A DNA stretch of 64,000 nucleotides from Granulicella sp. S190 (GTDB lineage Bacteria; Acidobacteriota; Terriglobia; Terriglobales; Acidobacteriaceae), in contig NZ_LMUD01000014.1 of NCBI RefSeq assembly GCF_009766095.1, forward strand, positions 573,715-637,714, written 5' to 3'. A model generated the notes under the pieces. It was not told the origin of the DNA, did no database searches, and worked only from the letters and a program-made list of their open reading frames with translations. Within the stretch, counting starts at the first letter, position 1, and each line of letters starts with the position of its first letter. The translations under genes were made by a program, and so were the position numbers. This document shows positions 1 to 52,835 of the stretch, in pieces.

Positions 1-793
1 CACCCTGCTGCGCGCAGATCTGAATGAGCAGGCACTCCCGCAGATCTCTCGACCCCACTCCCACCGGATCGAGATAGTTCACTACCCTTCGCGCCTCGCG
101 AACAGCCGTTAGAAGCGGCCCCATCGTCTCATCCGCTGCTGCCGCAATATCCAGCTCAACGCTCTCCCCAGCCTCTTTCCCGCCGGGCGCCTCCCATAGG
201 TGCGCCAGCCTGCCCTTGGTTCCGCGCTCGAAGGGAATCGGCTCAGACCGGGCAGGCTCGCGCATCTGCATCAGAGCTTCGACCAACTCCTCGTCGCTCG
301 CCGTCAGGTAGCCATTCTCATCGAGATTTCCGATTACCAACTCAGCCGCTGCACGAACCTCCGGGCTCAGGGTCAACGAACCCAGCTGCCACGTCAGATG
401 GTCGCTCAACGTGCCCGGTTGAGACAGGAAATTTTCAAACGAAGGCTTGTCGTACTCCTCAAAGTTCGAGGCCGTACGAAAACCCGGGTCAAGATAGTCC
501 TGAAAATAACTTCCGAAGTCGATCTCATCGAAGGGGTCTTTTTCTACCCGCTCGCTCTCCGCCGCAACGTCTTCCGCAGAGCGCTCCCGATCTCCTTCAA
601 GCCCGGCTCTCTCATCCAGCGAGACGACCGACTCCTCCAACTCTTCCAGCACCGGATTCTCCACCATCTCGGTGTTAATCATCTCCCTCAGCTCAAGCTT
701 GTTCAGCGCCAGCACGCTGACCATCTGCACCAGTCCAGGCGTCAATACCTGTCGTTGTGAGACTTTCAAGTTCAGCTTCGGTTGCAGCAGCAA
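1..793 (-). CDS. rpoN: RNA polymerase sigma-54 factor, N-terminal part (cut by window edge)
   Basis: Sigma-54 directs RNA polymerase to -24/-12 promoters that need an AAA+ activator. About 264 codons are inside the window. The N-terminus reads MLLQPKLNLKVSQRQVLTPG and matches region I, with the motif QVLTPGLVQMVSVLALNKLEL. An acidic region II follows (about residues 45-85), then the start of the core domain (LSDHLTWQLGSL, LDENGYLT). No ATG lies in frame before region I. The reading frame opens at 817, and the likely start is the TTG at 793, with GAGGGG (800-805) six bases upstream. It lies downstream of lptB, the order common in Gram-negative genomes. The identification is firm; the start codon is an inference. 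Confidence 0.93.
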   Translation of the reverse strand, partial: MLLQPKLNLKVSQRQVLTPGLVQMVSVLALNKLELREMINTEMVENPVLEELEESVVSLDERAGLEGDRERSAEDVAAESERVEKDPFDEIDFGSYFQDYLDPGFRTASNFEEYDKPSFENFLSQPGTLSDHLTWQLGSLTLSPEVRAAAELVIGNLDENGYLTASDEELVEALMQMREPARSEPIPFERGTKGRLAHLWEAPGGKEAGESVELDIAAAADETMGPLLTAVREARRVVNYLDPVGVGSRDLRECLLIQICAQQG

Positions 794-32271: not shown

Positions 32272-33102
32272 CTATGCAGCCCGATAGTGTCCCAGCACCT
32301 TCACCATTCGGCAATGTCCGCGCAGGGCACTGAGAGCGGCCTCAGGCTTCTCCACCGTATCGAAGCGCACATCAACGTAAAAGACGTACTCCCAGGGACT
32401 CCCTGGCACCGGTCTGGATTCGATCTTGGTCAGATCAACCCCGGCGTCTGCCAACCGCTGCAGCGCCGCCACCAGGGTGCCCGGACGATGATCAATGGCA
32501 AATGCCAGGCTCATCTTGTTCGCATCCCTTATATCCAGCACCTGCGAAGCGTCGCCATCGCGCCGCACGAGGTGAAATCTCGTGTAGTTCTCCGCATGAT
32601 CTTCCACGCCTGCCACCAGAACCTCAGCCCCATACTGTGTTGCAGCAAGCACAGGAGCGATCCCGGCTACATCCCGTAAACCCGCTTCCATCAGGTGCTT
32701 CACGCTACCCGCAGTGTCATAAAAAGGAACAACCTCAAACGCGGGATGCGCAGCCAGATATCTCCGGCACTGGGACAACGCCACCGGATGGGACATCACC
32801 CTCCGCACCTCACCGAGCTTCACCCCAGGCATCGCAATCACATTGTGCCGAATCCGTAGCAGACTCTCGCGCTCGATGTGCACCGGCAGATCAAGCAACA
32901 GATCGTAGTGTTCCGCCACTGACCCATGCAGGCTGTTTTCAATCGGCAATACTGCCCCATCGACTTCATAGGCAATCACTTTGGCAAGAACCTGAGCCGA
33001 AACTGTACACGCGATGATCTCCAGATCGTGATGGTTGCCTAGCATCTCGACAGTCGCCATATGACTGTTTGAACCCAACTCCCCCTGAATCGCGACCTTC
33101 AA
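32272..33102 (-). CDS. pheA: Prephenate dehydratase
   Basis: Converts prephenate to phenylpyruvate, the committed step to phenylalanine. The 276 residues hold a periplasmic-binding-like catalytic region (KVAIQGELGSNSHMATVEML at the N-terminus, VLPIENSLHGSV about 52-63). The catalytic T-R-F motif is in NYTRFHLV (about 172-179). A C-terminal ACT regulatory domain follows (FAIDHRPGTLVAALQRLADA, then the Phe-binding motif KIESRPVPGSPWEYVFYVD). No chorismate mutase domain is fused. The start is TTG 33102, with AAGGGG six bases upstream, overlapped by the stop of a 13-codon upstream ORF, so initiation may be coupled to it. Confidence 0.95.
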   Translation of the reverse strand: MKVAIQGELGSNSHMATVEMLGNHHDLEIIACTVSAQVLAKVIAYEVDGAVLPIENSLHGSVAEHYDLLLDLPVHIERESLLRIRHNVIAMPGVKLGEVRRVMSHPVALSQCRRYLAAHPAFEVVPFYDTAGSVKHLMEAGLRDVAGIAPVLAATQYGAEVLVAGVEDHAENYTRFHLVRRDGDASQVLDIRDANKMSLAFAIDHRPGTLVAALQRLADAGVDLTKIESRPVPGSPWEYVFYVDVRFDTVEKPEAALSALRGHCRMVKVLGHYRAA

Positions 33103-45665: not shown

Positions 45666-46328
45666 ATGGACGTCCAAGGCCAACAAATGACCCAATCAGC
45701 ACCGACCCCAGGCGTCTTCAAACGCAACCCCCCCATCGCGGGAGAAGCAGAAGCCATTGAAGCGGCAAAGAACGGAGACGCAGAGGCTTTTTCCAAGCTC
45801 TACGCACTCCACAAACGCCGCGTTTACACCCTATGCCTCCGCATGCTCGGCAACGTCTCTGAAGCCGAAGACATGACCCAGGAGGCTTTCCTCCACCTCT
45901 TCCGCAAGATCGGCAGCTTCCGCGGAGAGTCCGCTTTCTCCACCTGGCTTCACCGTCTCACTGTCAATCTGGTCCTTATGCACCTTCGCAAGAAGGGACT
46001 CAACCTCGTCTCCCTAGAAGAGACCATCAACCCTTCAGAAGAAGACGCGCCAAAACGCGACTTCGGCAGCCGCGACCTTGCGCTCACCGGCTCGGTCGAC
46101 CGCGTAGCTCTCGAGCGCGCCGTCGCCTCTTTACCTCCCGGCTATCGCATGGTCTTCGTCCTCCACGATGTCGAAGGCTTCGAACACAACGAGATCGCCA
46201 CCATGCTCGAGTGCTCCACCGGCAACAGCAAGTCGCAGCTTCACAAGGCCCGGCTCAAGCTCCGCGAACTCCTCCGCCAGCCTGACCCAATCGCCCAGCC
46301 AAATGGCCTCAAGGAGGTGGCGGTATGA
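45666..46328 (+). CDS. ECF-type RNA polymerase sigma factor
   Basis: A sigma-70 family factor of 220 residues. Region 2 spans about 34-105 ([60 protein letters not shown]). Region 4 spans about 141-205 ([55 protein letters not shown]). There is no region 1 or 3, which puts it in the ECF group (RpoE/SigW-like). The start ATG has GGAG upstream (45655-45658). It overlaps the next gene by four bases (ATGA). The partner is probably its regulator, and the pair probably responds to envelope or other stress; the signal is unknown. Confidence 0.93.
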
Positions 46329-46633
46329 CTGAATTTCAATCGCTCGACTTCGACAAGATGACCCCAGCCGACTTCGAGCAATATCTGCCTGAGTTCTTCT
46401 CCAACGGCGACGGCCACGTCAGCAACGATCCGCGCCTCCAAACCTTCCTCAGGAACAACCCCGACTGCGCCGCTCTCGTCCGCGACCTCGAAGCCATCGC
46501 TGACCAGGCCCGCAGCCTCTTCGAACCCACCGAAGATCAGGATCCAAGCGACGCCGTCTGGAGCAACATCCAGAACAAGCTGAAACAGGATTTAGGCGGC
46601 GAAGACGAACTTCCCATCCCCCAAACTGTATAA
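46325..46633 (+). CDS. Small acidic protein coupled to the ECF sigma factor (possible anti-sigma factor)
   Basis: A 102-residue, strongly acidic protein beginning inside the sigma factor stop codon. It has no membrane segment and no His-x3-Cys-x2-Cys zinc motif of classical ZAS anti-sigma domains. A helical core ([40 protein letters not shown]) still has a lone Cys in a position like that of the ZAS fold. The arrangement, size and coupling make a soluble anti-sigma factor the likeliest role; this is an inference. A terminator follows. Confidence 0.6.
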
Positions 46634-46692: not shown

Positions 46693-46791
46693 TCGAGTCA
46701 CCGATCTAACCGCCACCGAAGGCTACCTTACCCTCCATAAAAGCATCTCGAACACCCCAACACCGTCATTTAGAACACCCATAAAGAATTC

Positions 46792-46855
46792 GTCATCTCG
46801 ACCGAAGCGACGGACAGTCTCATCGTCCGTCGCGCAGTGGAGAGACCCCCGCATT
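46792..46855. repeat. Probable dispersed element with a perfect 9-bp hairpin
   Basis: The sequence from GTCATCTCGACCGAAG to GTGGAGAGACCCCC contains the perfect stem GCGACGGAC (46807-46815) / GTCCGTCGC (46825-46833). I recall similar sequence motifs scattered in acidobacterial intergenic regions; only one copy is visible here. It lies between two transcription units. Confidence 0.5.
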
Positions 46856-46928
46856 CAGTCTTTGTTCTTGCCAACCGTCCGTTCGTCAACCCCTCCCAAC
46901 CCTCTATTCGTCAATCCGTCCCAACCCC

Positions 46929-46957
46929 TTGCAATACCCCAAACACGCGTGTATCGT
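46929..46957 (+). promoter_or_regulatory. Candidate promoter of the aroK leader
   Basis: TTGCAA (46929-46934) and TATCGT (46952-46957) are separated by 17 bases and each match four of six positions of the sigma-70 consensus. Transcription would start about seven bases later, near 46964, only about three bases before the ATG of the leader peptide, which has no ribosome binding site. The transcript would be nearly leaderless. Confidence 0.45.
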
Positions 46958-46966
46958 CTTACCAGC

Positions 46967-47062
46967 ATGTCGAGCCGCTTCCAGTTCGCTTTTTTTACCT
47001 ACTCCTATTGGCGCCACCCAGCGGCCAGTGGAGTCCTCGCATGCATCTCTGAAAACACCTAA
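46967..47062 (+). CDS. Putative aromatic-rich leader peptide of aroK
   Basis: A 31-codon ORF: MSSRFQFAFFTYSYWRHPAA, then SGVLACISENT. Residues 5-15 hold four Phe, two Tyr and one Trp. It ends in a stop (47060-47062) that lies in the loop of a perfect hairpin (TCTCTGAA 47046-47053 / TTCAGAGA 47068-47075), followed by a terminator-like hairpin (47089-47117), and then by aroK, an aromatic-biosynthesis gene. This is the design of an amino-acid attenuator. It has no ribosome binding site and would be translated from a leaderless message. I know no described case for this gene. Function is inferred. Confidence 0.6.
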   Translation: MSSRFQFAFFTYSYWRHPAASGVLACISENT

Positions 47063-47125
47063 CAACCTTCAGAGACTTCGATCTTCCCGAGCCGCAACCC
47101 ACACCAGGTTGCGGCTCTTTCATTT
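47046..47125 (+). promoter_or_regulatory. Putative attenuator upstream of aroK
   Basis: Two hairpins in tandem: TCTCTGAA / TTCAGAGA (47046-47053 with 47068-47075, 14-base loop containing the leader stop codon), and an 11-bp GC-rich perfect stem GAGCCGCAACC / GGTTGCGGCTC (47089-47099 with 47107-47117) followed by TTTCATTT, a plausible intrinsic terminator. It is 31 bases from the aroK start. A clear alternative antiterminator pairing was not found by eye. Confidence 0.6.
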
Positions 47126-47147
47126 CTGCAGTTCTCAAGGAGAGGCA

Positions 47148-47759
47148 ATGACCACCATCGAACCCAAGACTGAATCCGGCAAAGAGACCCGGAAAGAAAC
47201 CAAGACCGCACCGACCATAGCACTCCCTGTCGGGCTCAAACGCATCGTCCTCACCGGCTTCATGGGCGCGGGCAAATCCACCATCGGCCGTCTCCTCGCC
47301 GCACGCCTCGGCTGGAACTTCCTCGACCTCGATACTCACCTCGAAGCCCGCACCAACGCCACCATCCCCCAGCTCTTCGAGCAGCACGGCGAAGCCCGCT
47401 TCCGCCGCTTGGAGTCCACCGCCCTCGCCTCTGCCCTCGGCTACAGCAACATCGTCCTCGCCCTCGGCGGCGGAACCCCCGAGGACCTCACCAACCGCCT
47501 CCTCCTCGAACAAACCCCCGCCACCTTCACCATCTTCCTCGACGCACCGTTCCCCACGCTCTTCGACCGCTGCATGTTGCAGGACATCGCTCGTCCCGTC
47601 CTCACCGATCCCGATGCCGCCCAGCTCCGCTTTGAGCGACGCCACCCCCTCTACCGCCGCCTCGCTGGTCTCACCATCGAGACCGCCGACCAGACCCCAG
47701 ATCAGACCGCAGATCAGGCCATCGAGGCGCTCCTCGCAGCCGGCCTACTCAAATCGTGA
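47148..47759 (+). CDS. aroK: Shikimate kinase
   Basis: Phosphorylates shikimate at the 3-OH in the shikimate pathway to aromatic amino acids. The 203 residues have a 30-residue Lys/Thr-rich N-terminal extension. The kinase core then shows Walker A GFMGAGKST (about 37-45), the shikimate-binding FLDLDTHLEAR (about 58-68), ALGGGTPED and the lid region with RPVL. The start is ATG 47148, preceded by AGGAGAG at 47138-47144. The frame is open upstream to 46929, but that part overlaps the putative leader region and is not kinase-like. Expression is probably controlled by the attenuator just upstream. Confidence 0.94.
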   Translation: MTTIEPKTESGKETRKETKTAPTIALPVGLKRIVLTGFMGAGKSTIGRLLAARLGWNFLDLDTHLEARTNATIPQLFEQHGEARFRRLESTALASALGYSNIVLALGGGTPEDLTNRLLLEQTPATFTIFLDAPFPTLFDRCMLQDIARPVLTDPDAAQLRFERRHPLYRRLAGLTIETADQTPDQTADQAIEALLAAGLLKS

Positions 47760-52671: not shown

Positions 52672-52708
52672 GTTCTTAAAAATCGCTTTCTAATCTCTCT
52701 TGCTTTTG

Positions 52709-52835
52709 TACTTGCTGCTGCACTCGCACTTGCTGTTGCCTGTTCTTTTGTTGTCATCCCGTAGGGATCTGCGGTTGCACTTGCTGTTGCACTCGCACTT
52801 GTCTGCTCTTTTGTTGTCATCCTGTAGGGATCTGC
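52709..52835. repeat. Tandem repeat of about 55-65 bp (two units) upstream of dnaJ
   Basis: Two imperfect copies beginning about 52709 and 52779, each reading ACTTGCTG..TGCACTCGCACTTG, then TTCTTTTGTTGTCATC or CTCTTTTGTTGTCATC, then TAGGGATCTGC. The second copy lacks several bases. Each ends with a TCC(C/T)GTAGGGA hairpin. It lies in the 224-bp gap between grpE and dnaJ. Translated on the minus strand it gives Thr/Ala/Ser-rich repeats, but no good start is present and it is better seen as noncoding. Confidence 0.6.

Follow-up and report, generated by a model that had tools for sequence, protein, structure and literature searches.

The region upstream of the shikimate kinase gene aroK in Granulicella sp. 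S190 very probably contains a ribosome-mediated transcription attenuator: a ribosome delayed on the aromatic codons of a short leader peptide would let an antiterminator form and thereby turn aroK on. Ribosome-mediated attenuation is a classical mechanism. By comparison of sequences, the leader element is real and conserved; the attenuation mechanism is proposed with high confidence, and from codon content together with modelling we infer that the leader senses the charging of Phe, Tyr and Trp tRNAs. An attenuator had been suggested in an initial annotation of this DNA, and that interpretation is supported by the aromatic block, reading frame, promoter spacing and terminator kept in relatives and by the antiterminator described below. 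The reach of the family is wider than the single aroK attenuator first claimed. Sequence and folding provide a leader ORF rich in end-product codons, an intrinsic terminator and a mutually exclusive antiterminator; that a ribosome on the regulatory codons frees the antiterminator, and a ribosome at the stop codon does not, is seen in an equilibrium model only.

The stretch analysed here (the window) comprises 64,000 nucleotides of a 5.05-Mb genome that is 99.8% complete. All elements of the aroK leader lie on its forward strand. The putative leader promoter TTGCAA-17-TATCGT (46929-46957; TTGCAA at 46929-46934, TATCGT at 46952-46957) is separated by 9 nt from the ATG at 46967. A generic sigma-70 scan returned no promoter upstream of the aroK leader, and the two boxes rest on sequence and comparison. 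The ATG opens a probably leaderless ORF of 31 codons plus TAA (46967-47062), supported by its translation and by homologues. Its product, MSSRFQFAFFTYSYWRHPAASGVLACISENT, carries the aromatic residues F5, F7, F9, F10, Y12, Y14 and W15, and the predicted sensing block F9 F10 T Y12 S Y14 W15 (46991-47011) is defined by the modelled A-site positions that release region 2 of the RNA. The stop codon TAA (47060-47062) sits within the loop of a perfect 8-bp predicted hairpin (47046-47053/47068-47075). It is followed by a predicted intrinsic terminator (47089-47125), which is supported by sequence, folding and relatives and has an 11-bp stem (arms 47089-47099/47107-47117), a 7-nt loop and the T-rich tail TTTCATTTCT, interrupted in the window as TTTCATTT. 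The aroK gene (47148-47759; Pfam SKI, E 8.8e-40) starts 30 nt past the terminator stem and has its own Shine-Dalgarno sequence AAGGAGAGG at 47137-47145; AroK also matches NCBIfam shikimate kinase models, with scores under their curated cut-offs. The promoter boxes and start codon, the 31-codon ORF with seven aromatics within residues 5-15, the stop codon in the hairpin loop and the GC-rich 11-bp terminator ahead of aroK had all been pointed out in the initial annotation, and sequence, translation and fold bear them out. The leader RNA folds 4.8 SD better than its dinucleotide shuffles, none of which (0/200) equals it.

Searched with AroK, 60 of 61 genomes had a match, and the same genus accounts for 37 (its own included). 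The loci fetched were those of the best 30 AroK matches, all from the same genus and again including its own; the nearest named relatives by AroK are Edaphobacter lichenicola strains (77-82% identical), so that the genus is probably Edaphobacter or one near it. A homologous leader ORF is present directly upstream of aroK in 30/30 of these loci, once with a GTG start. The distances from ATG to the TGG codon are 36, 39, 42, 45, 48, 51 or 57 nt, each divisible by three, as the starts had been picked in frame, and the distances from TGG to the following CTCT(G/A), measured in 27 of the 30 leaders, cover all three classes modulo 3. Thus the reading frame holds as far as the aromatic codons but not beyond, where it is the RNA and not the peptide that is conserved. 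The terminator stem is present in the aligned genus set, and four of its pairs have both partners replaced in at least one sequence. The CTCTGA/TCAGAG portion of the 47046-47075 hairpin is kept in most same-genus aroK leaders, and by eye this hairpin is weaker or missing in many other leaders of the aligned set. The comparison upstream of aroK that was suggested earlier as a check shows that relatives keep the aromatic block and its frame, as well as the promoter spacing and the terminator.

The family extends beyond aroK. A covariance model trained on the 30 aroK leaders only (R1) detected a second copy of the leader in the same genome, upstream of trpB-trpA-aroF-tyrA (E 7.1e-16), with the leader peptide MIFQSSRISFIPRYWRTIAASVE; own-genome matches at E above 0.07 were left out. 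The first gene of this operon is PALP by Pfam and is named trpB after its neighbour trpA. At E up to 0.1, R1 matched 111 of 250 genomes and 39 of 79 genera of the taxonomic family, including some terminator-only chance matches. A second model (R2) was built from 49 leaders; its E-values are rough, and its training members are matched by construction. It matched 113 of 299 genomes of the class (E up to 0.01), where each of the 28 same-genus genomes carries a pair of matches of E 6e-10 or better. In the phylum, at E up to 1e-4, it matched 40 of 396 genomes, of which six lie outside the class. The breadth of the R1 and R2 searches was Acidobacteriota. The downstream gene was looked at for five of the six out-of-class matches (all except that in G839): chorismate mutase or prephenate dehydratase lies downstream in G593, G552, G674 and G681, and none of the tested aromatic genes in G708.

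An aromatic gene follows on the same strand in 94 of 100 distinct model-found loci that were classified, these being mostly top matches rather than a random draw, with repeats of counted loci left out. In the other loci (L123, L124, L146, L149, L150 and L151) no tested gene was found; they match at E 1.3e-5 or worse and were not counted as members. With the 30 aroK loci, the total comes to 124 leaders in 110 genomes, and the first downstream gene is aroK in 61, trpB in 21, aroF in 21, chorismate mutase in 19 and prephenate dehydratase in 2, as identified by a domain check for ten proteins and by tblastn for the rest. The initial view of aroK as a lone, unusual target gives way to one attenuator family that serves about five types of operon. 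On the sequence evidence, this family probably controls trpB-trpA-aroF-tyrA in Granulicella sp. S190, and aroF or chorismate mutase/prephenate dehydratase operons in other Acidobacteriota. No aromatic leader peptide was seen upstream of the prephenate dehydratase gene of the window (32272-33102, minus strand), which may lie outside the attenuator regulon, and no such leader was seen for two further DAHP_synth_1-family genes (L184 on C35, L186 on C42); the third DAHP_synth_1-family copy, in the trpB operon (C1), sits behind the leader. A 60-residue ORF upstream of L184, with 4 aromatics in 11 residues, was judged unrelated.

The initial annotation had reported no clear antiterminator; one is now found, formed by 47021-47039 with 47079-47095. 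Region 1 (47001-47014) overlaps the Tyr/Trp codons and is predicted from the fold, its covariation being seen only in other family members. Region 2 (47021-47034), supported by the fold, the duplex and the ribosome model, is the 3' side of hairpin 1 and overlaps the 5' strand of the antiterminator (47021-47039; duplex and folding). Region 3 (47079-47095; duplex and permutation) is the 3' strand of the antiterminator and includes part of the terminator 5' arm. Region 2 can thus pair either with region 1 or with region 3 and its part of the terminator 5' arm; these pairings exclude each other and covary across the family. The antiterminator duplex of the window has 13 bp and -15.5 kcal/mol. The 47046-47075 hairpin is predicted to be nested inside the antiterminator; as an antiterminator itself it was rejected, having no base shared with the terminator.

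Pairing of regions 2 and 3 was compared with that of partners swapped between leaders, using 72 non-redundant leaders of 123 (L145 is lacking from this set, as its contig begins inside the leader). The native duplexes have a mean of -20.78 kcal/mol vs -17.86 kcal/mol for swapped partners (sd 0.30; n=72), and 0 of 20,000 permutations were as low as native, relatedness staying in. By class, 0 of 20,000 were as low for aroK, 0 for aroF and 1 for chorismate mutase; for trpB leaders alone the permutation was non-significant (1598/20,000). A smaller set (69 non-redundant leaders of 119), in which region 3 was shorter in several, gave 0/20,000 overall and 4005/20,000 for trpB. Fewer than four of the last five bases of region 3 are paired in 3 of the 72 duplexes (L020, L030 and L147), the core of L147 being mislocated there. 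Distant members have antiterminators of other sequence, the stretches being picked by eye: in L121, GAGUGGCGUUGGCC pairs with GGCCAGCCCACUC over 14 bp; in L147, CUCGGGUGCG lies within a 12-bp duplex with CGCCCCCGAG; L122 likewise has 14 bp and L148 12 bp. Outlying antiterminators are weaker (L144, 8 bp, -13.6; L145, 9 bp).

Hairpin 1 of the leaders of other operons is often formed by CCGCUACUGG...CCAGUAGCGG over Arg-Tyr-Trp codons. Covariation was scored in 19 hairpins of 23 bases, all distinct and in the Arg-codon register (five more leaders are letter-identical); L126 and L147, of 23 bases in another register, and all hairpins of other lengths were left out, and the set contains no same-genus aroK leader. 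In these 19 sequences 95.8% of cells are paired and both partners have changed in 6 of 10 pairs; none of 500 shuffles attains the covariation score. The same-genus aroK leaders have hairpin 1 in a shifted register, and the helix finder, applied to 72 leaders (the 69 plus L082, L112 and L138), misplaces it there; RNAalifold recovered only five hairpin 1 pairs in these leaders, none changed on both sides. As to covariation in the hairpins, proposed at the outset as a check, the terminator has its four pairs changed on both sides, and hairpin 1 has compensated pairs in other family members and none among same-genus aroK leaders.

The switch was modelled by folding the leader up to the terminator 5' arm, at equilibrium rather than kinetically, with pairing blocked as far as 10 nt past the A-site codon. 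For the window, the modelled antiterminator probability is 0.41-0.44 with the ribosome at codons 2-8, 0.95-1.00 at F9-Y14, 0.79 at W15 and 0.76-0.79 at R16-H17; it then falls to 0.00-0.06 from codon 23 and to 0.00 at the stop, and is 0.51 without a ribosome. For the trpB copy the values are 0.42-0.70 at codons 2-9, 1.00 at F10-Y14, 0.79 at W15 and 0.04 at the stop. Over the 72 leaders, the modelled median is 0.00 at the stop and 0.68 without a ribosome, which may leave room for basal read-through. The modelled permissive zones contain 288 aromatic codons vs 190.1 (sd 8.8) for shuffled residues; at least one aromatic codon falls in the zone in 68 of 72 leaders and none in 4, and 4 of 72 leaders keep a modelled probability of 0.5 or more at the stop codon.

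We propose that the transcription start lies only a few bases from the ATG, giving a leaderless leader mRNA. When charged tRNAs are plentiful, the ribosome would reach the stop codon inside the 47046-47075 hairpin; no antiterminator would then form, and transcription would end at about 47118-47125. With Phe-, Tyr- or Trp-tRNA in short supply, a ribosome waiting on F9-W15 would cover region 1, so that region 2 could pair with 47079-47095 and RNA polymerase could enter aroK.

A leaderless start is likely for the aroK and trpB leaders, since their sequences have close -10 boxes and few AGGA/GGAG motifs precede leader starts. In 50 of 72 leaders (shuffle mean 9.8) the end of a TANNNT box falls 4-13 nt ahead of the leader start, and 44 also have an upstream TTG (shuffle mean 0.65). 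By class, the -10 box is present in 23/27 aroK, 13/13 trpB, 11/19 aroF and 3/12 chorismate mutase leaders, and its distance to the ATG is mostly 8-10 nt in aroK and trpB leaders. AGGA or GGAG lies ahead of the leader start in 6/72 leaders; the same motifs with any start codon occur within 260 nt past the terminator in 68/72. Of the 72 leaders examined, 23 lack the promoter pattern TTG-18..21-TANNNT; in 48 of the other 49 the first ATG after it is in frame with the aromatic block, a test independent of the start choice. The aromatic fraction of the first 22 codons over the 72 leaders averages 0.291 in frame 0 vs 0.056 and 0.083 in the other frames, a contrast partly built in because starts were chosen for at least 3 aromatic residues; it is 0.069 in six proteins of the window.

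The codon content of the leaders varies with the operon. Among non-redundant leaders, Trp occurs within the first 24 residues in 27/27 aroK, 13/13 trpB, 17/19 aroF, 1/12 chorismate mutase and 1/1 prephenate dehydratase leaders (aroK plus trpB vs chorismate mutase, Fisher p 2e-10, relatedness uncorrected). Chorismate mutase and prephenate dehydratase act in the supply of Phe and Tyr, and the aroK and DAHP synthase steps are needed for Phe, Tyr and Trp alike. The presence or absence of Trp codons matches the products of the pathway branch that each operon serves. The Phe codon is TTT in 152 of 227 cases in leaders vs 6 of 71 in six window genes, and this poorer codon may sharpen the response. 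Phe before Thr/Ser is encoded by TTT in 96 of 105 cases, and TTT is invariant across 49 aligned leaders at this position, where none of the helices modelled needs it. The tetranucleotide TTTA at the recurrent Phe-Thr/Ser position (46994-46997 in the window) is nearly invariant.

With some reserve, we favour the broader reading that one ancient attenuator family provides the aromatic-amino-acid control of much of Acidobacteriota, as a leaderless pan-aromatic gauge (F-T-x-R-Y-W) copied to aroK, trpBA-aroF-tyrA, aroF and chorismate mutase/prephenate dehydratase operons, with the mix of F, Y and W tuned to their products. If so, a shortage of any aromatic amino acid would open the common pathway at its shikimate kinase and DAHP synthase steps. 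The candidate regulon of this major soil phylum, with five operon types and covarying RNA switches, is now testable; it joins multi-amino-acid sensing with an apparently leaderless start and places likely control on shikimate kinase.

The recurrent F-T/S-x-x-Y-W order, which goes beyond mere aromatic richness, and the preference for TTT before Thr/Ser that no modelled helix explains would both suit a nascent-chain arrest peptide, F-[T/S]-x-[R/C/S]-Y-W, that stalls its ribosome when it senses a free small molecule (aromatic amino acid or pathway intermediate) rather than through a shortage of charged tRNA. We consider such a peptide unlikely. Its aromatic content shifts by operon (Trp in 1/12 chorismate mutase leaders and 40/40 aroK and trpB leaders), the Arg codon belongs to hairpin 1 in most leaders of other operons, and the order of residues drifts widely (MSTRYYYWPSFTYRFPWVGSG, MKRRSQFAFTYRPDW), which fits codon counting and not one motif.

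Less probable still is that the leader is translated and its RNA structure acts on aroK translation or mRNA stability instead of termination. The T tail of the window is imperfect and the Shine-Dalgarno sequence, 20 nt past the stem, is partly in a small local hairpin in the whole-leader fold; yet it lies outside regions 1 to 3 and the terminator, the distance to the downstream gene is variable, and 8 nt with at least 5 T are found around the stem end in 72/72 non-redundant leaders. Finally, short aromatic runs arise randomly in T-rich DNA, and the 2.5 kb scanned contain eight terminator-like sites vs 1.8 expected, as if a constitutive terminator of an upstream unit merely stood beside an unrelated T-rich stretch. 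Such a coincidence is barely credible given the leader in all 30 same-genus loci, its recurrence before other aromatic operons and the covariation.

In the E. coli trpL, pheL and pheST leaders, the regulatory codons lie in region 1, the antiterminator is 2:3 and the terminator 3:4; these leaders are single-amino-acid sensors with a ribosome binding site. The acidobacterial leaders are predicted to share this arrangement of regulatory codons, antiterminator and terminator. In contrast to the E. coli leaders, a Shine-Dalgarno-like motif precedes only 6/72 of them, and the window has a stop-codon hairpin inside the predicted antiterminator. The three E. coli leaders are mentioned in the consulted part of PMC11802643. 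In Corynebacterium glutamicum, according to the consulted portions of PMC11802643 and PMC4046766, the AroR leader has Phe-Tyr-Phe before the aroF DAHP-synthase operon (Neshat et al. 2014), transcription is reported to be higher when ribosomes stall under Phe limitation, and some small ORFs are on leaderless transcripts. The acidobacterial family likewise places an aromatic leader peptide upstream of an aromatic operon. It differs from AroR as described there (F-Y-F, one operon, another phylum), being set apart by description and not by alignment, in that it is a single sequence family which combines F and Y codons, often also W codons, and serves aroK, trpBA, aroF, chorismate mutase and prephenate dehydratase.

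The Sinorhizobium meliloti rnTrpL/peTrpL leader RNA begins at the ATG and has a terminator/antiterminator upstream of a Trp gene, as given in the consulted part of PMC7298713. The leaders described here are similar in their predicted switch, and those of aroK and trpB probably also in starting at the ATG; unlike the 14-residue rhizobial peptide with its Trp codons, they have Phe, Tyr and Trp codons and precede several operons. The Acholeplasma uORFC-13-1 motif, as far as the consulted text of PMC8632094 describes it, is a predicted uORF with at least 1 Phe codon and a terminator before aroF, and it has a ribosome binding site. The likeness is in the Phe-codon uORF and terminator upstream of aroF; the organisms, the ribosome binding site and the criterion of at least 1 Phe codon set that motif apart, and 'Acidobacteri' is absent from the main text of that paper as consulted. 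Among the matches listed in the open-licence literature searched, we found no leader-peptide attenuator in Acidobacteria, none at aroK or shikimate kinase, and no single leader family that reaches from the common pathway into each of its two branches. Precedents in the sources cited are the leaderless trpL RNA of S. meliloti and, in C. glutamicum, the aromatic leader upstream of aroF. Rfam gave no match in the 64-kb window at gathering thresholds, the T-box model included, and at E up to 1 no T-box match was found in six loci; the sole match among them, to an lncRNA family (E 0.044), is unrelated.

Several features of the surrounding DNA were observed in passing. Directly upstream of the leader region, 45666-46633 holds an ECF-type sigma factor gene overlapping a 102-aa ORF for which no family match was found. 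An interspersed repeat (46788-46872), located after the ORF at 46325-46633 and ahead of the aroK leader, has 41 genome matches at 74-100% identity, itself included. A 25-bp tandem repeat of 2.3 copies (46871-46927) ends just before the leader -35 box. A 63-bp tandem repeat, in two copies with 85% matches, is located at 52706-52835.
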